A DNA stretch of 54,927 bases. Origin: Myxococcaceae bacterium (GTDB taxonomy: Bacteria; Myxococcota; Myxococcia; Myxococcales; Myxococcaceae). Under the pieces are notes generated by a model. It was not told where the DNA came from. It saw nothing but the letters and a program-made list of their open reading frames with translations, and made no database searches. The number at the start of each line of letters is the position of its first letter. Positions within the stretch are counted from its first letter, which is position 1. Of the stretch, positions 12,281 to 24,949 are shown one piece after another. The stretch is from positions 1 to 54,927 of the forward strand of contig RPRB01000013.1 of assembly GCA_003818285.1 (NCBI GenBank), in the 5' to 3' direction. The translations under genes and the position numbers were made by a program.

Positions 12281-13360
12281 TCACTTCTCCTCCTTCTTCG
12301 GCGCGTTCTTCTTGTCGAGCATCTTCCGGGCCATCAGCTGCACGCCGGAGGGGACGTTCTTGTTCTTCGTCAGCTCCTTCACCTCCGACTCGCGAAGCTG
12401 GGCCAGGAACTTCATCGCCACCGGGAGCGGCACCTTCGGGTTCTTGGTCAGCGCCACCTTCACCCGGTAGTCCTTCAGCCATTCCCGGTTGTTGTAGACC
12501 ACGCGCAGCACGTCGTCCTGGGCGGCGCGGTTGTTGGCCACCGCCAGCACCTCGCCGTCGGTGATCTTCGGGCTGCGGATGACCGCCACCGCCACCAGCT
12601 TGTTGCTGTCGCGGAGGAGATAGCTCCGGGCCTCCTTGTTGCCCTTGGTGGCCAGCTTGATCTTCTCCGCGATGCTCATCTTCATGACCCGTTGAGCGAG
12701 GGTGAGCCGCTTCCCCTCCTCCATGGGCGGAGCGTTCTCGTCCGCCAGCTCCCCGTACTCCGCGATGATCTCGTCGGCGGTGGGGCCGAGATCGGGCGGC
12801 GCCTCCGCCGCCTCGGGCCCGAAGATGCGCACCCGCGCCTGCCGCATCTGCGGAACGTCGGCCAGGAGCAGGCCGGAGCGGACGGAGAAGTCGCATACCC
12901 CGTCGATCAGCGCCGGGCCGCAGCGCGGGTTGAGGCACAGCTGTCGAACGATGTCCTCGTGCCGGAGCAGGCGGAGCTGGTTCTGGGCGATGATCTCCGC
13001 CGTCCGCATCCCGCAGTGCGAGGCGGCGCGCGCCAGGGCGTCGTCGGGCGTGGACGCGTTGAGGACCAGCATCTCGGCGTAGACGTCCAGCTCCGCCATC
13101 CGGTCCAGGAACCAGCCCAGCACCGGCGGCTCCACCTCCTCGTCGCGAAGCGCCGAGCTGAGGATGCGGTCCGGGAGCTTGCTCGCCGACTCCGCCGCGG
13201 TGGTGCGGACCTTCTCGTCCGCGTCGGCGGTGAGGAGGAACAGGGCGGTGATCATGTCCGGCGGCGGCAGCGGGACCAGCGCCTTGGCGGCCATCATCCG
13301 CATGGGGACGGGCGAGCCGGGATCCACGTGCTTCCTGAGGGTCGGGGAGAGCTCAAACAT
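12281..13360 (-). CDS. HEAT/armadillo-like helical repeat protein
   Basis: 359 residues, almost entirely helical, with repeated helix pairs that read like HEAT units: [38 protein letters not shown] and [20 protein letters not shown] among them. The middle is acidic ([20 protein letters not shown]) and the C terminus is Lys-rich ([10 protein letters not shown]). No enzyme motif, signal peptide or membrane segment is seen. ATG 13360 lies inside the last codons of coaX (8-bp overlap), so it is co-translated with coaX; longer upstream starts would run further into coaX. A scaffold or adaptor role is typical of such folds, but no partner can be named. Confidence 0.75.
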
Positions 13361-14126
13361 GGCCGTGGTTGCGCTCGTGGATGATGCGCAGCCCCTCCAG
13401 GGTGAGGAACTCGTCCACCTCCTGGATGCAGCGCGACTCGCCGGCGATGAGGCTCGCCAGGCCGCCGGTGGCGACCACCCGGACCGGGAATCCCAGCTCA
13501 CGGGTCATCCGCTCGCAGATGCCGTCCACCATGCCCACGTAGCCATAGACCAGTCCGGATTGCATCGAGTGCACGGTGTTCTTCCCCAGCACCGCGGGCG
13601 GACGGGCGAACTCGACGCGCGGGAGCTTGGCGGCGTTCTGAAACAGCGCCTCCATGGAGATCGTGACCCCGGGGCAGATGCTGCCGCCGAGGTACTCCCC
13701 CTTCGGGTTGACGGCGTCGAAGGTGGTCGCGGTTCCGAAGTCCACGACGATGAGCCCGCCCCGGTGCTTCTCGTACGCCGCCACGGCGTTCACCACCCGG
13801 TCGGCGCCCACCTCCCGCGGGTTGTCGTAGAGGATGGGCATCCCGGTCTTCACTCCCGGCCCCACGAAGAGCGGCGCCAAGGAGAAGTAGCGCTTGCTCA
13901 TCTGCTCCAGGGAGAACTGCATCGGGGGCACGACGCTGGAGACGGCGACCGCCTTGATGCCCTCGGCGGCGATGCCCGCCCACTGGAGGACCTGGCGGAT
14001 CCATAGCCCGTACTCGTCCGCGGTGCGGCGGGCCTCGGTGGCCAGCCGCCAGTGGTCGATCAGCTTCGGTCCGTCGAAGACCCCGAGGACAGTGTTGGTG
14101 TTTCCGACGTCGATGGTGAGGAGCAT
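13353..14126 (-). CDS. coaX: Type III pantothenate kinase
   Basis: Phosphorylates pantothenate, the first step of coenzyme A synthesis. 257 residues, normal length. The ASKHA-fold motifs are clear: N-terminal phosphate loop [47 protein letters not shown] and [15 protein letters not shown], with TGGLA near the C terminus. It sits 46 bp downstream of birA on the same strand, a pairing frequent in bacteria and consistent with a cofactor operon birA-coaX. Confidence 0.96.
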
Positions 14127-14172: not shown

Positions 14173-15183
14173 CTAGGGCCGGAGGCGGGATCGGACCTGC
14201 TCCACGTCTCCGGCGAGGATCCGCTCCACGCCGTCCTCGGTACGGAGGAGGAGCGCTCCGTCCGTGTCGATGTCCTCGGCCACTCCCCGGAGCTCGCGCC
14301 GCTCCGCCTTGACCAGGACCTCCTGACCCAGCGTCGACGACAGCTCGCGCCAGCGCTCCCGCACCGGCTCGAAGCCCTCCTGCTCGTGGGTGTCCAGCCA
14401 CTGCTCGAGGCCCCCGAGCATCCGGGCAAGGAACGCCGCGCGGTTCACCCGGCGACCCAGCACGCGGGTCACGCTCGTCGCCACCTCGGCAATCTCGGGC
14501 GGAAAGTCCGAGGACGCCGCGTTCAGGTTCACCCCGATGCCCAGCACCACGAAGTGCACCCGGTCCGCCTCCGCGGAGAGCTCGGTCAGGATTCCGGCGA
14601 TCTTCTTCACCCCCGCCTGGAGGTCGTTGGGCCACTTGATGGTCGCCTTGACGCCCTCGCCCCGGAGCGTCTCGGCCACCGCGACCGCGGCGAGCAGGGT
14701 GAGCTCGGGCGCGCGCTGCGGCGGCAGCTCGGGCCGGAGGATCAGCGAGGTGTAGAGGTTCTTGCCCGGCGGCGAGGCCCAGGTGCGGCCACGCCGCCCG
14801 CGCCCCGCGGTCTGCGTCTCGGCCACCACCACCTCGCCGTGCTCGGCGCCCTCGGCGGCCAGGCGGAAGGCGTGCTCGCTCGTGCTCCCCAGCGAGTCGA
14901 AGGCGTGCACCGCGCGGCCCAGGTCATGCGTCTCCAGCAGCGGGAGGATCTCCAGCCCGGTCAGCCGGTCCGGGACCCGCACCAGCCGGTACCCGCGCGA
15001 GGGCACCGCCTCGATCGCGTAGCCCCGGTCGCGAAGCGCGTTCACCACCTTCCAGACCGCGGTGCGGGAGAGCCCGAGCTTCCCGGAGAGCGCCTCACCA
15101 GAGGCGAAGTCCGTGCCCGACTCGAGCAGCATCTCCAGCACGAGCTGAGCGTGGGTCGCGTCCTGGCGATCGAGGGGTACCAT
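14173..15183 (-). CDS. birA: Biotin-[acetyl-CoA-carboxylase] ligase with N-terminal HTH
   Basis: 336 residues. An N-terminal winged helix (residues ~12-70, LSGKLGLSRTAVWKVVNALR) is followed by the catalytic domain with AGRGRRGRTWASPPGKNLYT (biotinyl-AMP loop GRGRxGR), ATIKWPNDL and KKIAGILTE with the catalytic Lys, then the small C-terminal domain. It activates biotin and attaches it to carboxylases; with the HTH it could also repress biotin genes, but none lie in the window. The ATG at 15183 is the first good start. It heads the birA-coaX-HEAT unit. Confidence 0.95.
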   Translation of the reverse strand: MVPLDRQDATHAQLVLEMLLESGTDFASGEALSGKLGLSRTAVWKVVNALRDRGYAIEAVPSRGYRLVRVPDRLTGLEILPLLETHDLGRAVHAFDSLGSTSEHAFRLAAEGAEHGEVVVAETQTAGRGRRGRTWASPPGKNLYTSLILRPELPPQRAPELTLLAAVAVAETLRGEGVKATIKWPNDLQAGVKKIAGILTELSAEADRVHFVVLGIGVNLNAASSDFPPEIAEVATSVTRVLGRRVNRAAFLARMLGGLEQWLDTHEQEGFEPVRERWRELSSTLGQEVLVKAERRELRGVAEDIDTDGALLLRTEDGVERILAGDVEQVRSRLRP

Positions 15184-15251: not shown

Positions 15252-15854
15252 TCACCGGAGCGGTGCGACCTCGAACGAGGTGAGGACGAGTTCCGCCGTG
15301 GGAGCGCTCCTCGCTCCGTCCTCCAGCGCCGTCCGCACCCGGACGATGCCCACGCCGGCGGCGAAGGTGACCCGGTTGACCAGGAGGCGGCCCGGCGTGC
15401 TCGGGTCGGCGATGGTCCGGCTCTCCACCTCGACGCAGTCCGGGAACTTCCCCGCCGGCGTCTCGCAAGGAGCGTGGACCGAGAGGACCCGGTAGTGCTC
15501 GGCGGACCCCGGAGCCACCACGCTGGTCCAGGTCGCACCCGTGGTGAGCGGTTCGTGGAGGAGGTAACGCACCTGGTCGCGGACGCCCTCACGGTCCACG
15601 CGGAGGGAGCGACCGTCCCGGTCCACGTAGCTGCCGTCCCGGAAGGCGACCACCTCCACCCGGCGGGTGGAGCGCTCGCCGAGGTAGGTCGCGTCGTAGG
15701 TCCAGCGGTTCCCCACCGCGAGGGGGAAGTAGCGAGCGGAGTCCGGCAGCCGACCGGCGGTGGCCGGCGCCGCCGGAGAGGCCCCCGGCGGCGCGGACTC
15801 GTGCGCACACCCGAGCAGCCCTGCCGCGAGCACCGCCCAGTGACGAAGGGTCAC
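15252..15854 (-). CDS. Putative lipoprotein of unknown function
   Basis: 200 residues. It begins with a lipoprotein signal peptide, MTLRHWAVLAAGLLGC, with lipobox LLGC at residues 13-16, so it should be anchored in the inner or outer membrane. The mature part is strand-rich (YFPLAVGNRWTYDATYLG; VEVESRTIADPSTPG) and resembles the secreted beta-sandwich proteins common in myxobacteria, whose function is unknown. Its GTG start overlaps the stop of the upstream HEAT-repeat lipoprotein (GTGA at 15851-15854), so the two are translationally coupled and may act together. Confidence 0.75.
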   Translation of the reverse strand: MTLRHWAVLAAGLLGCAHESAPPGASPAAPATAGRLPDSARYFPLAVGNRWTYDATYLGERSTRRVEVVAFRDGSYVDRDGRSLRVDREGVRDQVRYLLHEPLTTGATWTSVVAPGSAEHYRVLSVHAPCETPAGKFPDCVEVESRTIADPSTPGRLLVNRVTFAAGVGIVRVRTALEDGARSAPTAELVLTSFEVAPLR

Positions 15855-16777
15855 CGGGCGCTTCCCCCGGGAGCAAGGCTGGCATTCCGGGAGGGCCCGG
15901 GCGGTCCGCCCCGGTGGCCGTGCCGCCCCATCTCCTCCAGCGCCTGCCGGGCCGCGTCGCGCACCGCGGGCTGATCGTGCCCCTGTGACATCGTGTACAG
16001 GTAGGCCTGGGCCTCCTCCCCGCCGATGGCCCCCAGTGCGTAGACCAGCTCGCGCAAGAAGCCCGGGTCCTTGCCCCGGCTGATCTCGATGAGCTCCGGC
16101 ACCGCCTCGCGGGCCTGCAGCTCCACCAGCCCGCCGATGGCGCGGCGGACCTCCAGCGGATCGTCGCCGCGCAGCCGCTCCACCAGCGCAGGGATGGCGG
16201 CACGGTTCCGGCGGGAGACCAGCGCCGCCGCCGCGGCGTCACGGACCAGCGGGTCCGCGGCCCGGAGGTCCTTCACCAGCCGCGCGTCGTCGCGCTTCCG
16301 GGCGTCGAGGTGAACCCGCGCCTCCTTCACCAGACGGTCCAGCACCTGGTCCAGGGCCCGGCGAGCGGCCTCCTGACGACCCTCGAGCGCGTCGCCCTCC
16401 ACCGCCTGGGTCCGGCTGGCCTGGAGCGCGATGCGCTCCACCCCCTCCTCCGTGCTCCGGCGGATGCCGAGCGAGGCGGTCACCTCCTCCATCGCCGGCA
16501 GGCCGGAGGCGTTGGTCTGCTCCTGAACGGCGTCCACCTCCAGGGTGAGGCGGACCGCCCCCTCCTCGCCTCGGCTCCTGGAGTCGAGGAGCTTGAAGCC
16601 GCGGTCGGGCACGAGCCGCCTCGACAGCTCGCTCTGCAGCTGCGACGGGGTGAGGGCCAGGACCTGCGCCTCGGCCAGGGAGGCGGCGACCACCTCCACC
16701 CGCTCAACCGGATGCGGGGGCGGCTTGCACCCGGCGAGCAGGAGCAGCCCGGCAGCGACGGACGCGGTCCTCAACAC
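15851..16777 (-). CDS. HEAT-repeat lipoprotein
   Basis: About 308 residues from the GTG at 16777, with signal peptide VLRTASVAAGLLLLAGC and lipobox LAGC. Residues ~30-150 are a strand-rich domain; residues ~170-290 contain HEAT/PBS-lyase-type repeats such as DPLVRDAAAAALVSRRNRAA and DPLEVRRAIGGLVELQAREA. It is likely a periplasmic scaffold held in a membrane. A TTG at 16795 would add six residues; neither start has a clear ribosome binding site. TTACACT just upstream could be a -10 element giving a nearly leaderless mRNA. Overlaps the next lipoprotein gene by 4 bp. Confidence 0.78.
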   Translation of the reverse strand: MLRTASVAAGLLLLAGCKPPPHPVERVEVVAASLAEAQVLALTPSQLQSELSRRLVPDRGFKLLDSRSRGEEGAVRLTLEVDAVQEQTNASGLPAMEEVTASLGIRRSTEEGVERIALQASRTQAVEGDALEGRQEAARRALDQVLDRLVKEARVHLDARKRDDARLVKDLRAADPLVRDAAAAALVSRRNRAAIPALVERLRGDDPLEVRRAIGGLVELQAREAVPELIEISRGKDPGFLRELVYALGAIGGEEAQAYLYTMSQGHDQPAVRDAARQALEEMGRHGHRGGPPGPSRNASLAPGGSAR

Positions 16778-16839
16778 AGGCCCGGAGTGTAACAAGGCGA
16801 GCCCGCCTGCGGCTGCGCCGTCCGCTCTCGGTGGGCGGT

Positions 16840-18537
16840 CTACCCCTGGTCGGGAGCGGTGGACTGCCCGCCACCCGACGGTGCCTCCGAGGGGGGCGCC
16901 GCGGACTCGGGCGCAGACCCCGGGGGGGAGTCCTGGCCTCCGGGGGTCCCTCCGGAGGGCGGGTTGCCAGCGGCGGCGGCCGGATCGGTTCCCGGAGCAC
17001 CGGGGGCCCCCTCTCGACCGCGGCCACGCCGGCCCCTCCGCCGTCGCCGGCGACGGCGGCGTTCGGCGCTCCCGGCCTCGCCCGCGGCGGCCGGACCTCC
17101 CTCGGCTCCCCCGGCGGCGGCACCCTCGGGCCCGGTCTCCTCCGGACCCTCCTCGTCGCCTTCCTCCTCACCGCCCTCGTCGTCCTCGGCGGACGCCTCC
17201 ACGGGCTCCGGCGGCTCGACGGGCTCCGCCCGTTCCTCGCGCTCCCGGTGGCGCTCCTCGCGTCGGCGGCGCGATTCCTCGGCGCCGCGCGCGGCCTCGT
17301 CGAAGAAGGCGCGGTCCAGCTCGAACAGCTCGAGGGAGACCACGCGGACGCCGGTGTGCGACTCGAGGAACTTCTCCGCCAGCCCCTCGCCGGCCCAGAC
17401 ATGCACCGGCACGCCGGAGAGGGCTTCCGAGCGCGCGTCGCTCCGGAGATCACCGGTCGCGATGAGCAGCGCGGCGTGGGCCGATTGGTGCTGGAGGTCG
17501 CGGCGGCAGTCCTGGACGGCGCGGCGCTCCACCGGGCCGTTCCCGCGGTGGATGCGGATCGTCCAGCGCAGCTCGAGGCTCCCGTCCTTGCGGCGGGCGG
17601 TGAGCAGCGGGCCGTGGTTGCCGCGCTTGGCGACCTTGATCTCCCGGAAATGGAGCGCATGCAGCATCTTCACGCATGCCTTCTCCACCGTACCGTGCTC
17701 GAGCGAGGCCAGGTGCGCGCGCAGTGCGCGCGCCGTCGCCCGGCGGGCCTCCTTGACCGCGCTCTTCGCGGCGTGGACCAGCCCGTCGTCGGCCAGGGCC
17801 TCCGGCGCCGAGGGCAGCGGCTGGCGGAACACGATGCGCCCGTCGCTGAACGGCAGCTCCAGCGCCCGGGCGAAGGCGGACTGCACCTCGGCGACCGGGG
17901 CGTCGTCCCGTTCGAGCATGAGCGCGCCGGTGGGGTCGATCGCGAAGTTGGGGCGACGGCCGGCGTCGATGCGGCGCTGGTTCTCCTCGGCCAGGCTGAT
18001 GAGGAGCGCCTCGGGCTGGAGCTCGTCCGAGGCCAGCTGCCGCTCGCGGGCGAGCCGGAGCACCTCGGAGGCCGCGAGCGGGGAATCCGCCTCTCCCAGG
18101 AGCTCGAAGGCGACCTCGGGGACCGGCGGGTAGCGGCGCTTCTTGCCGCGCTCCTCCTCCTCGGCGCGGCGCCGCCGCTCCTGCCGGCCGATGCCGCGGA
18201 CGTTCTCGTTGCGCGGCTCGGGGTGGCGCTCGACCGGGCGAAGCGGAGGGTGCCCCTCCTCGGGGTGCTCGTACGGTGCGGACATCGCCTCCAGCGCGGC
18301 GGCGTCCTCGGGAAGCCCCCAGTCGGTGAGGGCGAAGGTGTCGGCTGCGGTGACGGTGACGCGGCGATCCCGGGCGCGACGGGCCATCGCCGCCAGACGG
18401 GAGAGCATCGTCTGTTCCGGCGTCTTCCCGACGTGGCTGAGAAGGCCCTGGGCGATCGACCGCTCGGTGATCTCAACCGAGGTGAGCGGCTGGCCGGCAG
18501 CCTCCAGGACCCGGAGTGCGGCCTCGTAGAAAGTCAT
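16840..18537 (-). CDS. HARE-HTH protein with a degenerate Mrr-like nuclease domain and a poly-Arg, low-complexity tail
   Basis: 565 residues. Residues 1-~75 are a HARE-HTH (HB1) winged helix (FYEAALRVLEAAGQPLTSVE; GKTPEQTMLSRLA; FALTDWG). A second HTH-like stretch occupies ~140-200. Residues ~275-400 follow the Mrr/restriction-endonuclease-like fold (EKACVKMLHALHFREIKV; AALLIATGDLRSDAR), but the catalytic Asp and Q-x-K are not present: the strand that should carry Q-x-K reads TIRIHRG. The last ~150 residues are acidic and then contain a run of nine Arg followed by Gly/Pro/Ser/Ala. It may bind methylated or damaged DNA or act in chromatin rather than cut. Starts at ATG 18537. Confidence 0.75.
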   Translation of the reverse strand: MTFYEAALRVLEAAGQPLTSVEITERSIAQGLLSHVGKTPEQTMLSRLAAMARRARDRRVTVTAADTFALTDWGLPEDAAALEAMSAPYEHPEEGHPPLRPVERHPEPRNENVRGIGRQERRRRAEEEERGKKRRYPPVPEVAFELLGEADSPLAASEVLRLARERQLASDELQPEALLISLAEENQRRIDAGRRPNFAIDPTGALMLERDDAPVAEVQSAFARALELPFSDGRIVFRQPLPSAPEALADDGLVHAAKSAVKEARRATARALRAHLASLEHGTVEKACVKMLHALHFREIKVAKRGNHGPLLTARRKDGSLELRWTIRIHRGNGPVERRAVQDCRRDLQHQSAHAALLIATGDLRSDARSEALSGVPVHVWAGEGLAEKFLESHTGVRVVSLELFELDRAFFDEAARGAEESRRRREERHREREERAEPVEPPEPVEASAEDDEGGEEEGDEEGPEETGPEGAAAGGAEGGPAAAGEAGSAERRRRRRRRRGRRGRGREGAPGAPGTDPAAAAGNPPSGGTPGGQDSPPGSAPESAAPPSEAPSGGGQSTAPDQG

Positions 18538-18577: not shown

Positions 18578-18952
18578 TCAACCGGAGGGATTGAGCCCGC
18601 CGCCTTGCCTCCTCCTCACTCCGGCCTCCAACGGCTGCACCGACGCGTCCAAGATCGTCAGCGCGAACGAGACGACGGCCGGTCGGTCCGGGAGGTGCGC
18701 CACCATCTCCTTGAGGCCGTCGACCGCCTGCTGGAGCGCGGTCTTCCGCGGCCGAAGCGCAGCCGACGGCTCGACGAGCGACTGTCCGGGCGCGGAAGGA
18801 GAGCTTCCGGCTGATGGCGGCTGCTCCTGGGCGAGGATGTCGTTGCAGAGCGCGATGCATTCGTCGCAGATGTAGACATTCGGGCCGGCGATCAGCGCGG
18901 AACTGCGCTTGCAGGGCGTCACCGCCCGTGCAAAGCACCGCCACTCTCGCAT
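18578..18952 (-). CDS. ClpX-type (C4-like) zinc-finger small protein
   Basis: 124 residues. The segment SSALIAGPNVYICDECIALC, followed by NDIL, is nearly identical to the second half of the ClpX N-terminal zinc finger. The first Cys pair is abnormal: Cys6-X7-Cys14 instead of C-X2-C. The rest (HLPDRPAVVSFALTILDASV) is helical with no AAA+ domain, so it is not ClpX; it may bind adaptors or other proteins through the finger. ATG 18952 or ATG 18961 are possible starts; a GTG at 18922 would remove the first Cys. The start codon overlaps that of the divergent gene (CATG). It lies 40 bp upstream of the HARE-HTH gene on the same strand. Confidence 0.65.
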   Translation of the reverse strand: MREWRCFARAVTPCKRSSALIAGPNVYICDECIALCNDILAQEQPPSAGSSPSAPGQSLVEPSAALRPRKTALQQAVDGLKEMVAHLPDRPAVVSFALTILDASVQPLEAGVRRRQGGGLNPSG

Positions 18953-21098
18953 GCTCCGCATCCGGATCGGCCGACGCTGGACCCGCGAGCGCGGGACCGC
19001 CCCGCACGATTCGGTGTCTCTCGAGCTGGACGGGGTCGCCCTGGTCGACGGGGCCGAGGACGAGCCGCTCCTCCCGCTGGTCGAGGCCCTCCTCGGATGC
19101 ACCGGCGCCCTCGCGCGCGGCACGGCGATGGCCGACGTCTCGCTGCCGGAGTCGGGGCTCGTCCTCTGTCTGGAGAACACCGAGGACGGGTGCGCCTTGC
19201 GCATCGCGTCGCTCGCCCGGCCCGCGCGGCTCGTGCGCCGCGTGCGGCTCGACTGGTCCGAGTGGTGCGAGGCCGTGGTGCGGATGGGCGAGCAGTTCCT
19301 CAGCGACCTCGAGGAGTCCCCCGTCCCTGCGGCGAGCCGGCGCGCGGTCCGCGAACGCCTCCGCGCGCTCCGGCATCCCTCGCGCCTGGCGCCGCCACGG
19401 CCGGCGGCCCCGCTCGGCGTCCGCCTCGGCGCGTCCGGCCGGGCGCTGGTGCTGCAGCTGACGGACGGCTCGGGACTGCTCGAGCGAGCCCCGCGCGGAC
19501 ACGCCGCCGCGCTGGGGGCGCTCCTCGGCTCGGGGCGCATCTGGGTCTCCGGCGCGCCGGAGGGCTGGCAGCTCAAGGGACCCGTGCTCCTCCACGTGCT
19601 GGAGCTGGTTCGCTGCGGCGAGGAGGTGCAGCGGGCGCTGGGAACGAGCGTCGAGACGATCGAGATCCATCTGCCGGACGGACCCTCCCGGGTGTCCCTG
19701 CGGAGTCCGGGGTGGACGCTGGGCAAGGAGACCCTTCCCTGGTCCGCCGAGGACGTCGCCCGGGCGCTGCTCTCGCTCGGCGCCTCCGCCGCGCGCGCGG
19801 TGCGCTGGGCGATTCCGGGCCAGCGGAGGAACCCGCACCTGGAAGAGCTCGTCGCGCGGTCCGAGGCGGGCCTGGCGCTCCTCCGTCCCCTGACCGGCGA
19901 GAAGCGGGAACGTGCCCCGGTCAAGCGGCGAAGGCCCGCCCGCGCCACCCGGGCGGTCCGGCCGCTGCGGCGCGAGGGCAGCATCCGTCGCCTTCGCTTC
20001 CTTCCGGTAGCGCATGCCCCGGGCCTCGCCGGCCCGGGCCCGGCCACGCTGGTCGCGACGGACGCGAGCGTCGTCCTCGTCTCCGACCGCGGGATGGACG
20101 TGGTCGGCTGGGACGGAAAGCTGCGGCTGCACCGGCCCACCCCACGGGGGGGCGCCGCCGCTCCCGAGGGTCGCGCCGTCGCCGCCACGCGCAGTCGCCT
20201 CTACGGCTACGGTCCGCAGGACGCCAATCCCCGCTGGTTCCAGCCACACGACGGCGCGGCACTGGACCCGGTGGCCATCACTGCCGAGCAGCTGCTCCTC
20301 TTCGGCGTCGAGCGGCGGGGGGTGCGCGCGGTGGACGTGCTCACCGGCCGGGAGCGCTGGTCCTTCCTGCCGGCGCGGACGCGGCGGCTCCACCTCGCGC
20401 TCTCCGGCGTCACCGTCCTCGCTGCCTCGGAATCGGGCGTCCTCACCGGGCTCGACCTCCATGACGGCACGGTGCGCTTCCGCGTGGCCGCCCCCCTGCC
20501 CTTCACCGGCCCCGCGCTGTCGTGGGGACCGGTGGTGCTGGTCCCCCTCGGGCGCGAGGACCGTTCGGCGCTGCTCGCGCTGGACCCGGTGCTCGGCGAG
20601 GTGCGCTGGCTCACCGAGCTCCCCCTGCACCAGGCCGTGGCCCCCACCGCCGGCGGCGCCCGCGCGTGGATCGCCGGGCTGCACGAGGACCGCCCCACCC
20701 TGGCCTGCCTCGACGTGCGGGGCCGGGTGCTCTGGCAGCGCGCGGTCGCGGTGCCGGACCGACCGGCGGGCCTGCTCCGCGCGGGCGCGGAGCTGCTCGT
20801 GGTGGGCACGAGCGGCGCCGCGGTCCGGGTCCGGCGCGACGGGAAGCCGGTGTGGCGCGCGGGGGCGGCGGGGGTCGCGCCGGCCGCAGTGCCGCCCGCC
20901 CTCGAGCACGGCGTGGTGCTCGCCGCTGGCCCGGTGGTCCGCGCGATGGACGTGCGCAACGGGCGGGTGCTGGCCGAGCTCCCCGCGGGTCGCGGGGTGC
21001 GGGCCATGGCGGTGAGCCCGCGCCTCGACGTGGCGCTGCTGGACGAGTCCGGCGACCTGGCCATCCACTGCCTGGCCAGCCACTTCGCCGTGCTCTAA
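18951..21098 (+). CDS. PQQ-like beta-propeller repeat protein with an unknown N-terminal domain
   Basis: 715 residues from ATG 18951. Residues ~340-715 contain outer-membrane-BamB/PQQ-type propeller blades, each with strands of the kind VRAVDVLTGRERWSF, VLTGLDLHDGTVRF, LLALDPVLGEVRWL and VRAMDVRNGRVLAE. Residues 1-~330 have no recognised family, being strand- and Leu/Ala/Arg-rich. There is no signal peptide, so it may be cytoplasmic, unusual for this propeller type. ATG 18951 overlaps the divergent zinc-finger start and lacks a ribosome binding site; GTG 19014 in the same frame is an alternative that would free the overlap. Function unknown. Confidence 0.75.
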   Translation: MLRIRIGRRWTRERGTAPHDSVSLELDGVALVDGAEDEPLLPLVEALLGCTGALARGTAMADVSLPESGLVLCLENTEDGCALRIASLARPARLVRRVRLDWSEWCEAVVRMGEQFLSDLEESPVPAASRRAVRERLRALRHPSRLAPPRPAAPLGVRLGASGRALVLQLTDGSGLLERAPRGHAAALGALLGSGRIWVSGAPEGWQLKGPVLLHVLELVRCGEEVQRALGTSVETIEIHLPDGPSRVSLRSPGWTLGKETLPWSAEDVARALLSLGASAARAVRWAIPGQRRNPHLEELVARSEAGLALLRPLTGEKRERAPVKRRRPARATRAVRPLRREGSIRRLRFLPVAHAPGLAGPGPATLVATDASVVLVSDRGMDVVGWDGKLRLHRPTPRGGAAAPEGRAVAATRSRLYGYGPQDANPRWFQPHDGAALDPVAITAEQLLLFGVERRGVRAVDVLTGRERWSFLPARTRRLHLALSGVTVLAASESGVLTGLDLHDGTVRFRVAAPLPFTGPALSWGPVVLVPLGREDRSALLALDPVLGEVRWLTELPLHQAVAPTAGGARAWIAGLHEDRPTLACLDVRGRVLWQRAVAVPDRPAGLLRAGAELLVVGTSGAAVRVRRDGKPVWRAGAAGVAPAAVPPALEHGVVLAAGPVVRAMDVRNGRVLAELPAGRGVRAMAVSPRLDVALLDESGDLAIHCLASHFAVL

Positions 21099-21184: not shown

Positions 21185-22162
21185 CTACTTCTGGCCCTTG
21201 CGGGCGGCCACCGCGGGGTCGATCTCCTCCTCGCTCCGCGTGGTCACCGTGGCCCCTTCCCAGGCCTCGCCCGCCTTGAGCTTCCAGTCGTCCGGCACCG
21301 GCAGCTTCCAGCTGTACTGGGCGTTGATGTCCCCGCCGGTCGGCGCGTGCGAGCGCACCGCGACCAGCATCTCCATCTGACTCACGTTGGCCGGCACCGG
21401 ATCGAGCTCGTACTGGCCGAGCACGGTCTGGGGCGGGAACTCGGCGATGAGGCGCTCGGGGTAGTCGTTGCGCATTCCGGGGTTGCCGGTGCTCATCTCG
21501 CCGTAGAGCTTCCCCTTGTCGTCCAGGAGCCGGAAGGTGGTGGCGAACTCGGCCCAGGTGAGCACTCGCTTCACGCCGCTCCGCTCGTCCTCGCGCGTCT
21601 CGCGCTGGGCGCCCCAGAGCACGAGCGGGAAGCGGATCTTCGGCTTGTTGCCCACCATCACCACGTCGGCCGACACGATGTCGAGGCGGAGCCCCTTGTC
21701 CGTGCCGGTGAGCACCGGGGCGTACTTGCCGGTGCGCATCCGGTCGAACATCGCCTTCTCCCACTCCCAGAAGGCCTTGCGGTTGACCGGATTCGCCATG
21801 GGCCCGCGCGGGCGGCCGTCCGGGAGCTGCGGCAGCTCCGCCTCGGCCTGGGCCTTCGCCTTGCGTTCCATGTCCTTCAGGTAGTCGTCGTAGGCGGGGT
21901 TGCCGCCGAACTTCGCGTGCTGGGCCGAGACCTGCTCGAAGTACCAGCGCAGGTAGCCCTTGATGTCGTTCTTGTACGACTCGGCGTCGGGGTTGCTGCG
22001 GATCCACCCCGCCCGCTCCAGCGCCTCGGTCCGGAGCCGGAGCGCGGCGATCTCCTTGCCCGCCTGCGCCTGCGCTTCGGTGGCGCGGCGGTACCCCACG
22101 ACTCCAGCCGCGCTGAAGCCGACGATCACCACCAGGAGGACGATGGCCAGGTTGCGGTTCAT
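21185..22162 (-). CDS. Membrane-anchored protein, last gene of the exporter/DUF692 operon
   Basis: 325 residues. One N-terminal membrane segment (residues 4-24, NLAIVLLVVIVGFSAAGVVG) with no cleavage site suggests an inner-membrane anchor with a large periplasmic part. A short helical stretch (~28-50) follows, then Trp/Tyr-rich sequence (YLRWYFEQVSAQHAKFGG) and a strand-rich C-terminal domain (IRFPLVLWGAQRE; QYSWKLPVPDDWKLKAGEAW). No family recognised. The ATG start overlaps the stop of the DUF692 gene (ATGA, 22159-22162), so it is the end of the operon that begins at 30271. A periplasmic partner of the exporter or of the modified product is possible. Confidence 0.7.
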   Translation of the reverse strand: MNRNLAIVLLVVIVGFSAAGVVGYRRATEAQAQAGKEIAALRLRTEALERAGWIRSNPDAESYKNDIKGYLRWYFEQVSAQHAKFGGNPAYDDYLKDMERKAKAQAEAELPQLPDGRPRGPMANPVNRKAFWEWEKAMFDRMRTGKYAPVLTGTDKGLRLDIVSADVVMVGNKPKIRFPLVLWGAQRETREDERSGVKRVLTWAEFATTFRLLDDKGKLYGEMSTGNPGMRNDYPERLIAEFPPQTVLGQYELDPVPANVSQMEMLVAVRSHAPTGGDINAQYSWKLPVPDDWKLKAGEAWEGATVTTRSEEEIDPAVAARKGQK

Positions 22163-23685
22163 GTCGGACCGGAAGTCTCCCCCGGTGCCCCGGGCGGGTC
22201 CAGCCCACGCTCTCCCACCTCCAGCCGGCCCCGGTTCCACCGCGCATGCACCCACCAGGGACGTGTGGGAGCACGGCGGACCGCCTGCGCCAACCCCTCC
22301 AGCGCGCCCTCCGGCACCACGCCCTCCCCCAGGGCCCGCGCCGCGAGGTGCCGGCGGAGCGCGTGCGCGGCGAAGAGCGCCTCGCCGAGATCCGCGGCGA
22401 AGACGCCGCTCCTCCCGCCGGGGGCACGCGCGAGACCCTGGGCCCAGGTGTCGAAGGCGAGCGCCGTCGCCAGCTCCGGCGCGCCGGACCCGCGCACCTC
22501 GGCCCGCGCCCAGCCGGCCCAGGCCGTGTCGAGGGGCTGGCCGGCGGCGAACGCGTTCCGGAACGCATCCGACCCGAGGAACCGCTCCAACGCTGCCCGT
22601 GAGGGCGCCAGCAGCGGACGCGACAGCGGCCAGCGCGCATCGAGCGCCTCCATCGTCACCGCCAGCCGCAGCCCCTGCTCGGCCCGGACCCCCACCGGGT
22701 CCTCGGTCGGCGTCGCCCGCCCGTGCACCTGGTCGAATCGTCGCCAGGCCAGGTCGGCCGCGTGCGCCGGCAGCGGCGGGGCTGGACCGCGAGGAGGCGG
22801 CAGCTCGATGGCCGCGCGCTCGGCCACGGGCTCAAGCATCATCCGGAGCGTGGCCAGCGTGCGGCGGGCGGCGCTCGCCGGGTGCCCGTCGCCCTCGAAC
22901 ACCAGCGCCCGCAGCGCCCGGCACCGCGGCAGCACCTCGGCGAGCAGGGCCAGCACCTCGCTCCGGAGCGGTTGTCCGTGGTCGTCCATGTAGACCCCGC
23001 GGCCGTCCGGCGTGTGGGTGATGACCGCCCCCGCCACGTGCACCTCGATCACCGCCTCGAAGGGAAAGCCGTCGAGCCCGGTCTCGAGCGGGAGCCGGGA
23101 CGCCAGCTGCGCCGCGACCAGGTGGCCCACGTCGAGCACCAGCGGGCACCCGGTGCGGGCGTGGAGCTGGCCCATGAAGTCCAGGACGTGCAGCGGCCCG
23201 TCCCGGCGCACCACCACCGGGTTCTCGAGCGCCAGCGGGACCGACAGCGCCGAGGCCACGTGGAGCGCATGCGCGCAGGCCACCTCCAGCCCCGCCGGGC
23301 TGAACGGCGGCGGGAGGTAGAGATAGCCGGGCAGCGCCTGCCCTCGGACGTGCCACCAGGCCACGTCGTTCCCCACCCAGGGCGAGCCCACCGCGCGGGC
23401 ATGCGCGTCGAGCGCGACCAGCCGCTCGGCCGGCTCGAGCTCGGGCCCGGCCAGGTTGAGATGGACCGGATGGAAGAGGACCGGGAGCCGCGCCCGCGCG
23501 TCGAGGAGCGCTCCGAAGAGCCCCGCCTGCTGCTTCGCCTGCTCGAGCTCGAGCGGCGCGCTGTACTCCACGAGGTCGAACAGCCCCGGCGTGGCGGCGT
23601 GCAGCGCCCAGGGGTCCGGCTCGACGGCCGGATCGAGGTTGCTGGAGAGGCCGAGCCCGAGGAAGGGCAAAGCGCGTGCGTACAC
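22159..23685 (-). CDS. DUF692 (MbnB/TglH-family) metalloenzyme-like protein with a long C-terminal extension
   Basis: 508 residues. Residues ~1-280 match the DUF692 TIM-barrel family: LGLGLSSNLD at the start, LFHPVHLNL, LALENPVV, LVLDVGHLVAAQL and EVHVAGAV with DDHGQPL, which supply the His/Asp/Glu metal ligands typical of the family. Members such as MbnB and TglH are multi-iron enzymes that modify Cys in peptide precursors. Residues ~300-508 are an added Ala/Leu/Arg-rich helical region not found in simple family members; a fused partner domain of the MbnC/HvfC kind is one possibility I cannot confirm. GTG 23685 starts 13 bp after the permease stop. No precursor peptide gene is adjacent. Confidence 0.85.
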   Translation of the reverse strand: MYARALPFLGLGLSSNLDPAVEPDPWALHAATPGLFDLVEYSAPLELEQAKQQAGLFGALLDARARLPVLFHPVHLNLAGPELEPAERLVALDAHARAVGSPWVGNDVAWWHVRGQALPGYLYLPPPFSPAGLEVACAHALHVASALSVPLALENPVVVRRDGPLHVLDFMGQLHARTGCPLVLDVGHLVAAQLASRLPLETGLDGFPFEAVIEVHVAGAVITHTPDGRGVYMDDHGQPLRSEVLALLAEVLPRCRALRALVFEGDGHPASAARRTLATLRMMLEPVAERAAIELPPPRGPAPPLPAHAADLAWRRFDQVHGRATPTEDPVGVRAEQGLRLAVTMEALDARWPLSRPLLAPSRAALERFLGSDAFRNAFAAGQPLDTAWAGWARAEVRGSGAPELATALAFDTWAQGLARAPGGRSGVFAADLGEALFAAHALRRHLAARALGEGVVPEGALEGLAQAVRRAPTRPWWVHARWNRGRLEVGERGLDPPGAPGETSGPT

Positions 23686-23698
23686 GGTCGCTGGGAGC

Positions 23699-24949
23699 CT
23701 ACTCGCTCCGCATCGCCTCGACCGGGTCCAGCTGCGCCGCGCGTGCCGCGGGGTAGATGCCGAACACCAGCCCGACCCCGCTGCTCATCGCCAGCGCCAG
23801 CGCGATCGCCCAGGGAGGAACCGTCATCGGGAAGCCGAAAGCCCAGCGCCCGAGCGCGGTCAGCGACAGCCCGAGCACGAGACCCAGCACTCCGCCGAAC
23901 AGCGAGAGGGTCACCGCCTCCAGAGCGAACTGGCCGAGGATCCGCCGCCGCTTCGCGCCCAGCGCCTTGCGGATGCCGATTTCCCGGGTCCGCTCGGTCA
24001 CGCTCACCAGCATGATGTTCAGGATGCCGATCCCGCCCACCACCAGAGACAGGAGGCAGATCCCGAAGCTGGCCGCGGTGATGACGTTGCTCAGGTTGTT
24101 GAAGGTCCGGGTCATGGACTCGTTGGTGTCCACCTCGAAGTTGTTCGGGGCGTCGGGCTTGACGTTCCGCCGCATGCGGAGCAGCGCGGTCACCTCGTCC
24201 TGCGCCCTCCGGAGCTGGGTGGGGTCGGTGGTCTGGACGTTGATCCGCAGGCTGCGGTTGCGACCGAAGAGGTCCAGCGCGTTCGGAAGCGGGAGCACGA
24301 CCATGCTGTCTGCGTTGAACACCCCGAAGATCTTCCCCCGCTTCTCCAGCACGCCCACCACCTGGAAGACGCGTCCCCGGATCCGCAGCTCGCGCCCGAG
24401 TGGGTTCTGGCCGGGAAACAGCCGGTCGGCGACGTCGAGACCCACGACCGCGACCGAGCGGGCCTCCTCCACCTCGTTGATCGAGAAGAATCGTCCCGCG
24501 GAGACGGACCGGCCGCTGGTGTCGATCCACTCGGCGGTCGCCCCCTGGACGATGACGTTGGGCTGGGTCTCGGCGATGGCGCTGGAGATCTTGTTGGGTC
24601 CGAGCCAGGTCTGCGCCGACGCGGTGGTCACCGACGGGCACCCCTCGCGGACCGCGCGCAGGTCAGCGAGGCCGATGTTCGGCCGGCGCTGGAAGCGCCT
24701 CCAGTCCATCCGGCCCAGGTTGATGCCCGCCGGCCACTTGGAGACGCTGAACACGTTCGCCCCCAGGTTGGAGAGGTCGGTCGTCACCTTCGACCGCAAT
24801 CCTTCCACCAGGGCCATCATGGTGATGACGGTGGTGACGCCGATGACCACGCCAAGGAGCGTGAGCAGGGACCGGAGCGGGTTCGCGGCCAGGGTGCCCA
24901 CCGTGAGCCTGAGGTTGTCCCAGAGGGCGATGAAGCGCGGGCCCTTCAT
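23699..24949 (-). CDS. FtsX/MacB-type ABC transporter permease (second copy)
   Basis: 416 residues with the MacB topology: one N-terminal membrane helix (LLTLLGVVIGVTTVITMMAL), a ~200-residue periplasmic MacB_PCD domain (VSAGRFFSINEVEEARSVAV; LFPGQNPLGRELRI), then three C-terminal helices with the FtsX hallmark GIGILNIMLVSVTERTREIG and ALGAKRRRI. Membrane-bound partner of the ATPase at 26169; with the other permease it probably forms a heterodimer that moves substrates by mechanotransmission through MacA and TolC. Start ATG 24949 overlaps the upstream permease stop (ATGA). Confidence 0.93.
   Translation of the reverse strand: MKGPRFIALWDNLRLTVGTLAANPLRSLLTLLGVVIGVTTVITMMALVEGLRSKVTTDLSNLGANVFSVSKWPAGINLGRMDWRRFQRRPNIGLADLRAVREGCPSVTTASAQTWLGPNKISSAIAETQPNVIVQGATAEWIDTSGRSVSAGRFFSINEVEEARSVAVVGLDVADRLFPGQNPLGRELRIRGRVFQVVGVLEKRGKIFGVFNADSMVVLPLPNALDLFGRNRSLRINVQTTDPTQLRRAQDEVTALLRMRRNVKPDAPNNFEVDTNESMTRTFNNLSNVITAASFGICLLSLVVGGIGILNIMLVSVTERTREIGIRKALGAKRRRILGQFALEAVTLSLFGGVLGLVLGLSLTALGRWAFGFPMTVPPWAIALALAMSSGVGLVFGIYPAARAAQLDPVEAMRSE

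Follow-up and report, generated by a model that had tools for sequence, protein, structure and literature searches.

A near-universal HARE-HTH protein of the Myxococcia whose Mrr-like nuclease fold lacks its catalytic residues

Genes and domains of the HARE-Mrr locus

The window is the whole stretch of DNA that was analysed, 54,927 nucleotides from a Myxococcaceae bacterium (assembly GCA_003818285.1, contig RPRB01000013.1). One of its leftwards-transcribed genes, at 16840-18537 (-), has an ATG start and encodes a full-length protein of 565 aa, identified from its ORF and by Pfam and genome profile searches, in which a HARE-HTH domain, a further winged helix, a predicted inactive Mrr-like domain and an acidic-Arg tail follow one another. 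The HARE-HTH domain (residues 1-73, 18319-18537 (-)) matches PF05066 with an E-value of 1.2e-13 and 51.7 bits versus a cut-off of 25.9, and its alignments display the lineage motif LLSHVGKxPE. The Mrr-like PD-(D/E/Q)xK fold (residues 273-397, 17347-17721 (-)) was placed by Pfam and structural alignment, with a match to Mrr_cat (PF04471) at residues 277-388 (E 3.3e-10, 40.5 bits versus a cut-off of 21). An earlier note on this DNA had described a HARE-HTH joined to an Mrr-like domain, and the two Pfam scores, both above cut-off, bear this out; it had overlooked the second winged helix, the acidic stretch ahead of the Arg run and the near-universal presence of the gene in the class.

An AlphaFold2 model of residues 1-418, built on a 29-row alignment (mean pLDDT 83, pTM 0.41), contains the HARE domain, the second winged helix and the Mrr fold, with low-confidence linkers between them. 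The second winged helix (residues ~134-239, with its core at 134-212; 17821-18138 (-)) has no Pfam match and was recognized by AlphaFold2 and hhalign; modelled by itself it once more folds as a winged helix (pLDDT 86), it is weakly similar to the HARE domain (hhalign E 3.4e-4, probability 38%), and it is possibly a divergent HARE copy. In the VIA structural comparisons no fold stands out for this domain, its best row, RNA polymerase delta (2m4k, Z 7.2), being level with numerous winged helices. The nuclease fold of the model aligns with nuclease-fold chains at Z 10.6-12.4 (AF1548 12.4, AspBHI 11.7, EndoMS 10.7, MspJI 10.6). PDB sequence searches returned nothing useful for the window protein or its active relatives, no PHROGs or NCBIfam family matches it, and the relatives share its features in the alignments. 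The tail includes an acidic stretch recognized by composition (residues 451-463, 17149-17187 (-)) and, at residues 493-501 (17035-17061 (-)), the Arg9 that the earlier note had reported, followed in the tail sequence by GRRGRGR.

The next genes downstream code for a HEAT-repeat putative lipoprotein with a lipobox-like start (LAGC; 15851-16795 (-)), a second putative lipoprotein of no known family (15252-15854 (-)), a BirA-like biotin protein ligase (14173-15183 (-)) and a CoaX-like protein (13353-14126 (-)), which we take to be a type III pantothenate kinase; on the other side, a PQQ/BamB-like beta-propeller gene (18951-21098 (+)) is transcribed divergently. All were assigned by Pfam and gene order, with the exception of the CoaX-like gene, assigned by its ORF and gene order. 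The arrangement is found whole or in part at loci L002-L005, and at least one of the propeller, HEAT and second lipoprotein genes lies near the gene in 15 of 18 other loci of the order, the exceptions being L063, L067 and L075, and in the fetched stretches of both genomes of a further family of the class, down to which the second lipoprotein recurs. These recurrent neighbours are envelope-type proteins with no obvious DNA pathway, and the neighbourhood does not resemble a defence island. Just upstream of the HARE-Mrr gene, a short ORF at 18578-18961 (-) matches the second half of zf-C4_ClpX (E 5.2e-10, positions 15-38 of the 39-residue profile) with the first Cys pair unmatched, and at 22159-24949 (-) a MbnB/TglH/ChrH-type RiPP modification enzyme (E 6.9e-29) adjoins a MacB/FtsX permease.

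Lost catalytic residues and a basic hairpin

Type IV and Mrr endonucleases carry the catalytic motif D...(Q/D/E)-x-K, which the window protein lacks. At the place of the GDGGID-type stretch, of which the last Asp is presumably the catalytic one, residues 306-312 (17602-17622 (-)) align as GNHGPLL, and the Q-x-K strand reads T326-I-R-I-H330, with R328-I329-H330 (17548-17556 (-)) in the Q-x-K positions. We compared 75 class loci from 75 genomes, taken from the query's own family (f1), from families f2-f9 of the same order and, beyond that order, from one more family of the class (f10): the catalytic Asp is present in 0/75, the Lys of Q-x-K in 0/75, and the Gln in one (L062). The earlier description of a kept scaffold with a TIRIH strand and no catalytic residues therefore holds, with the absence of Asp and Lys extending to every class locus compared. 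Seven of the eight other Mrr-type matches (L084-L091) retain both the Asp and QxK, the exception being L085. At the first acidic position of GDGG, 72/75 class loci have E or D; the window protein has His.

The hairpin around the lost site is basic. Across 37 diverse members of the dead family, hand-picked at about one per genus, its mean net charge is +7.5 versus +0.7 in seven active relatives, and that of the whole Mrr core is +5.8 versus +0.4. Twelve positions, all in the hairpin and helix, are K or R in at least 92% of the 37 dead members (301, 304, 305, 307, 315, 317, 324, 328, 338, 345, 346 and 369), including the old Gln position (328), which is K or R in 36/37, and one column is Gly in 7/7 active proteins versus K or R in 34/37 dead ones. 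Several of the basic positions are already partly basic in the active enzymes, and acidic columns are also conserved within the dead domain.

Comparison with the nearest relative (one same-genus pair, NG86) gives dN/dS ratios of 0.27 for the HARE domain, 0.06 for the second winged helix, 0.21 for the Mrr domain and 0.21 for the tail, reflecting purifying selection in this pair; because the Mrr value is 0.21 in one close pair, we conclude that this domain is not decaying, and the full-length ORF together with these ratios rules out a pseudogene in the window. Against L010 the HARE part, over 18319-18537 (-), shows little synonymous divergence (dS 0.18 versus 0.50-0.57 in other core parts), possibly because the 5' end of the gene carries an overlapping signal.

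Distribution, relatives and the acidic-Arg tail

The gene is present in 37 of 39 genomes of the family sample and in 35/35 of those of good quality, with one match each. In the phylum sample there are profile matches in 142/193 genomes, among them 135/145 of the class (92/95 in f1, 41/48 in the other families of the order and 2/2 in f10) and 7/48 in the rest of the phylum; the per-family counts were tallied by eye, by kinship, with at most nine candidates scored per genome. Some genomes list two or three profile matches, which, where both are visible, are mostly two halves of one ORF, and the match in G185, of the order, is a contig-edge fragment only. Two of the ten class genomes with no match are at least 90% complete, G177 (93%) and G098 (99%); a second search found no copy of the gene in G177 and only an Mrr with an intact site (L091) in G098. 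In the single-contig genomes G105 and G176 (L080, L081) the gene has one in-frame TAG, at different places; some relatives have intact copies. From these TAG copies and absences, unless they are assembly errors, the gene may be dispensable somewhere.

Outside the class, HARE-Mrr fusions are found in at least 2 of the 48 genomes (G040, G042), both with intact sites. Four more outside-class matches are of Mrr type with no HARE stretch in the profile match, and the one of these scanned by Pfam (L087) contains Mrr_N and Mrr_cat; in a seventh genome, G045, the match is to a HARE protein whose Mrr region fits the profile in degenerate form and has no Pfam Mrr match. The loci L006 and L007 also code for degenerate HARE-Mrr proteins, with none of the window gene order and an unsure placement in the tree, and are possibly a separate loss of the catalytic site. 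In an unrooted tree of the Mrr domain (46 rows), f1-f10 lie on one side with support of 92/95, just under the tool's star, and the grouping follows the families, with support of 100/99 for the f1 clade. No relative was found in searches of plasmids, phages and viral contigs, the viral-contig part consisting of two short peptide patterns that reach close relatives only.

Type IV and Mrr restriction endonucleases are typically patchy and mobile in their distribution, and presence in 135/145 class genomes with a tree that follows families is not of this kind. That the protein is not a restriction enzyme, as the earlier note had proposed, is well supported by the missing Asp and Lys, the near-universality, the family-following tree and the lack of mobile relatives in the searches made.

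The Arg run is encoded by mixed codons (CGC, CGT, CGG, CGA and AGG), and the bare CGN7 word has two overlapping matches, at the Arg9 place alone, versus 0.08 expected; the mixed codons and the conserved place rule out DNA repeat noise. An uninterrupted basic run of 8-12 residues is present in 54/55 f1 loci, the remaining one (L032) running off its contig, and the basic cluster is interrupted in three reduced genomes of f1 (L104-L106). In f2 the run is present in 10/11 loci, the eleventh (L107) being an assembly gap with Arg9 in another frame, and in f3-f10 it is present in 0/24, where L068 and L074 end at a contig edge. The Arg run is thus an add-on, absent from the sampled members of f3-f10.

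Every one of the 64 tails that have a run also has an acidic 20-mer, placed 11-27 residues N-terminal to it. The layout resembles that of Myxococcus xanthus CarD, in which a folded N-terminal half is followed by an acidic segment and then by a disordered basic tail that binds DNA (PMC4374960), but where CarD has RGRP AT-hooks, none of which occur in the window tail translation, there are an Arg run and RG here, and the folded halves are unrelated.

Possible functions of the protein

The gene probably codes for a DNA-binding housekeeping protein, because its cutting site is lost and has become positively charged, and because it is kept in most sampled genomes of the class, often with the same neighbours. 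We think it rather likely that this is a core architectural or regulatory (transcription) factor, tamed from a restriction enzyme, that binds DNA. The ancestor would have been a modification-dependent restriction enzyme of HARE-wH-Mrr type that was tamed early in the evolution of the Myxococcia, and its active site would have been lost as the Gln was replaced by Arg or Lys and the Lys and catalytic Asp disappeared, with the surrounding hairpin turning basic. To judge by their folds, the HARE domain and second winged helix would hold duplex DNA, which the dead nuclease fold may clamp without cutting, and in f1 and f2 the flexible acid-then-Arg tail might tune non-specific binding in the manner of CarD and its HMGA-like tail. 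The most likely role would be in nucleoid architecture or transcription regulation and not in defence. The DNA-binding and chromatin-like character that the earlier note had suggested is plausible by the same reasoning, although the HARE and wH folds are also capable of protein binding, as in RNA polymerase delta.

More tentatively, and with rather less confidence, the protein could be a near-universal, class-wide chromatin protein, with two HARE-type winged helices, a dead nuclease clamp that has gained positive charge and, in f1 and f2, an HMGA-like acid-Arg tail, making it an analogue of linker histones and HMGA derived from a defence enzyme. The HARE-type winged-helix fold is like the linker-histone globular domain, and the structural rows of the HARE domain include the yeast H1 globular domain at Z 9.3. 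These readings overlap in part, as do those below, and their probabilities need not sum to one.

The same structural rows bear on an RNA-polymerase-associated factor, in which HARE and wH would bind polymerase like Bacillus delta, the dead nuclease fold would make protein contacts and the charged tail would modulate contacts with nucleic acid. RpoE delta scores Z 8.1 for the HARE domain, and delta is the best row for the second winged helix; RPB5 rows score Z 7.7-8.8 for the nuclease fold, and RPB5 is described as having a nuclease fold that is inactive and serves in protein contacts (PMC1185551). But linker histones, active nucleases and winged helices that bind DNA reach equal Z values, and the basic hairpin would fit nucleic acid better than protein. 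We regard this reading, one of the two main alternatives together with the epigenetic reader, as unlikely.

The base-reading part of MspJI and AspBHI is separate from their nuclease fold, to which the likeness of the window protein is confined; this counts against an epigenetic reader whose HARE domain recognizes a modified base in host DNA, with genes regulated by methylation state. In its favour, HARE-HTH domains are assigned to modified-DNA recognition in two papers (PMC11037411, PMC10853773), a PF01555 N6/N4 methylase is present in 20/20 tested carriers, and a CcrM-like methylase is present in 94/95 f1 genomes. But PF00145 (C5-methylase) matches in only 12/20 carriers, and the eight with none include the single-contig genomes G023, G136, G070 and G117; the CcrM-like methylase is found in 0/22 genomes of f3, f4, f5, f7, f8 and f9, each of which does have a HARE-Mrr profile match. 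In total this adenine methylase (e.g. L097:3362-4291 (-), L098-L103) occurs in 119/193 genomes at E 1e-75, including f2 (20/24), f6 (2/2), f10 (1/2) and 2/48 outside the class, a tally made by eye at a strict limit that could miss divergent copies; its closest solved relative is CcrM, with scores far under the CcrM equivalog cut-off. Dependence on 5mC and dependence on the CcrM-like methylase are both unlikely on these counts, and retention of the protein follows neither methylase because carriers without PF00145 and without the CcrM-like methylase exist. The epigenetic reader of the earlier note is therefore not supported, and we consider it improbable; the protein may read another mark, or act as a reader in f1 and f2 alone. 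The families f1 and f2 have both the Arg run and the CcrM-like methylase, and six families have neither; a tie between the two is broken by f6 and by the f10 genome G089, which have the methylase and no run.

A defence sensor or decoy would bind foreign DNA or a nucleotide and signal to a partner. The PADLOC profile PDC-S02 matches the window protein (E 3.1e-12, residues 257-419 only, with no curated cut-off given), NA-iREase1 (PF22722, the inactive REase of NACHT systems) scores above cut-off in the relatives L007, L065 and L075, and inactive REases have been proposed as nucleotide sensors in one report (PMC12839542). NA-iREase1 does not match the window protein at E-values up to 1, however, and it is also above cut-off in the intact-site relatives L084, L087 and L088, so it is no marker of a sensor function. 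The near-universal presence, the retention of the gene in genomes of 2.1-2.7 Mb, the recurrent housekeeping neighbours, the lack of relatives in the phage, plasmid and viral-contig searches and the lack of an NTPase or effector domain by Pfam in the window protein all stand against this reading, which we regard as very unlikely. Slightly less credible still is an RNA-binding protein whose Arg/Gly tail acts on RNA, as its RRGRGR-like composition might suggest, since the domain folds belong to DNA-binding or nuclease types and the tail is lineage-restricted.

A nuclease with a displaced active site is the most improbable of these readings: position 285 in the first helix (E285) is acidic (E or D) in 75/75 class loci, as in active enzymes, L062 keeps its Gln, and the first-strand pair E299-x-K301 is acid-x-Lys in 28/37 and acid-x-Lys/Arg in 35/37 diverse dead members, but the canonical Asp and Lys are missing throughout, the E299-x-K301 strand precedes the usual Asp site in the AlphaFold2 model, K301 is Arg in 8/37 and Asn in 1/37, the E299 and K301 columns vary among active relatives, and other acid-x-basic pairs in the dead domain are mostly acid-x-Arg. 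An active nuclease is thus judged unlikely on the catalytic columns, and of the intact D-(D/E)-x-K that would have spoken against the earlier note, none lies at the canonical place, with E299-x-K301 standing as the one displaced-motif candidate.

The proposed DNA-binding factor tamed from a restriction enzyme can be set beside several known proteins. The modification-dependent HARE-HTH + Mrr/REase enzymes (e.g. L084 and L088 of the same phylum) likewise have HARE and Mrr_cat by Pfam, with weak winged-helix matches between the two in L084; unlike them, the window protein has no catalytic D or Q-x-K, has a basic hairpin and is near-universal in its class, and the dead family has an acid-Arg tail in f1 and f2. 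MspJI and AspBHI carry a recognition domain and share the nuclease fold with the window protein, in which the catalytic residues are absent and HARE and wH replace the recognition domain. RNA polymerase delta (RpoE of Firmicutes) is similar in its HARE-type fold and acidic disordered tail, but is not known to have a nuclease fold or an Arg run. The RecC nuclease-like domain and RPB5 are PD-(D/E)xK folds that have lost catalysis and taken other roles (PMC1185551), but they have no HARE fusion and belong to other complexes.

HARE-REase fusions (PMC10853773) and inactive REase domains (PMC12839542, PMC1185551) are already described. The literature searched, with most subscription papers outside its coverage, gave no account of a class-wide dead HARE-wH-Mrr protein with an acid-Arg tail, and literature listings for myxobacterial methylomes and transposon essentiality gave nothing on the HARE-Mrr gene. 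In this family a defence nuclease appears, quite clearly, to have become a core housekeeping protein, and enzymatic relatives in the same phylum allow the change from cutting to binding to be followed and put to the test. The family also cautions that not every HARE-Mrr gene codes for a restriction enzyme. If the role in the nucleoid or in transcription is correct, the protein would add a widely kept regulator, absent from the literature searched, to those of large-genome multicellular bacteria. We also note that L085:1-2211 (-), from G045 of another class, codes for a HARE domain with the SHVGK motif, a degenerate Mrr region and a tail of RPER/RGDR-like repeats.
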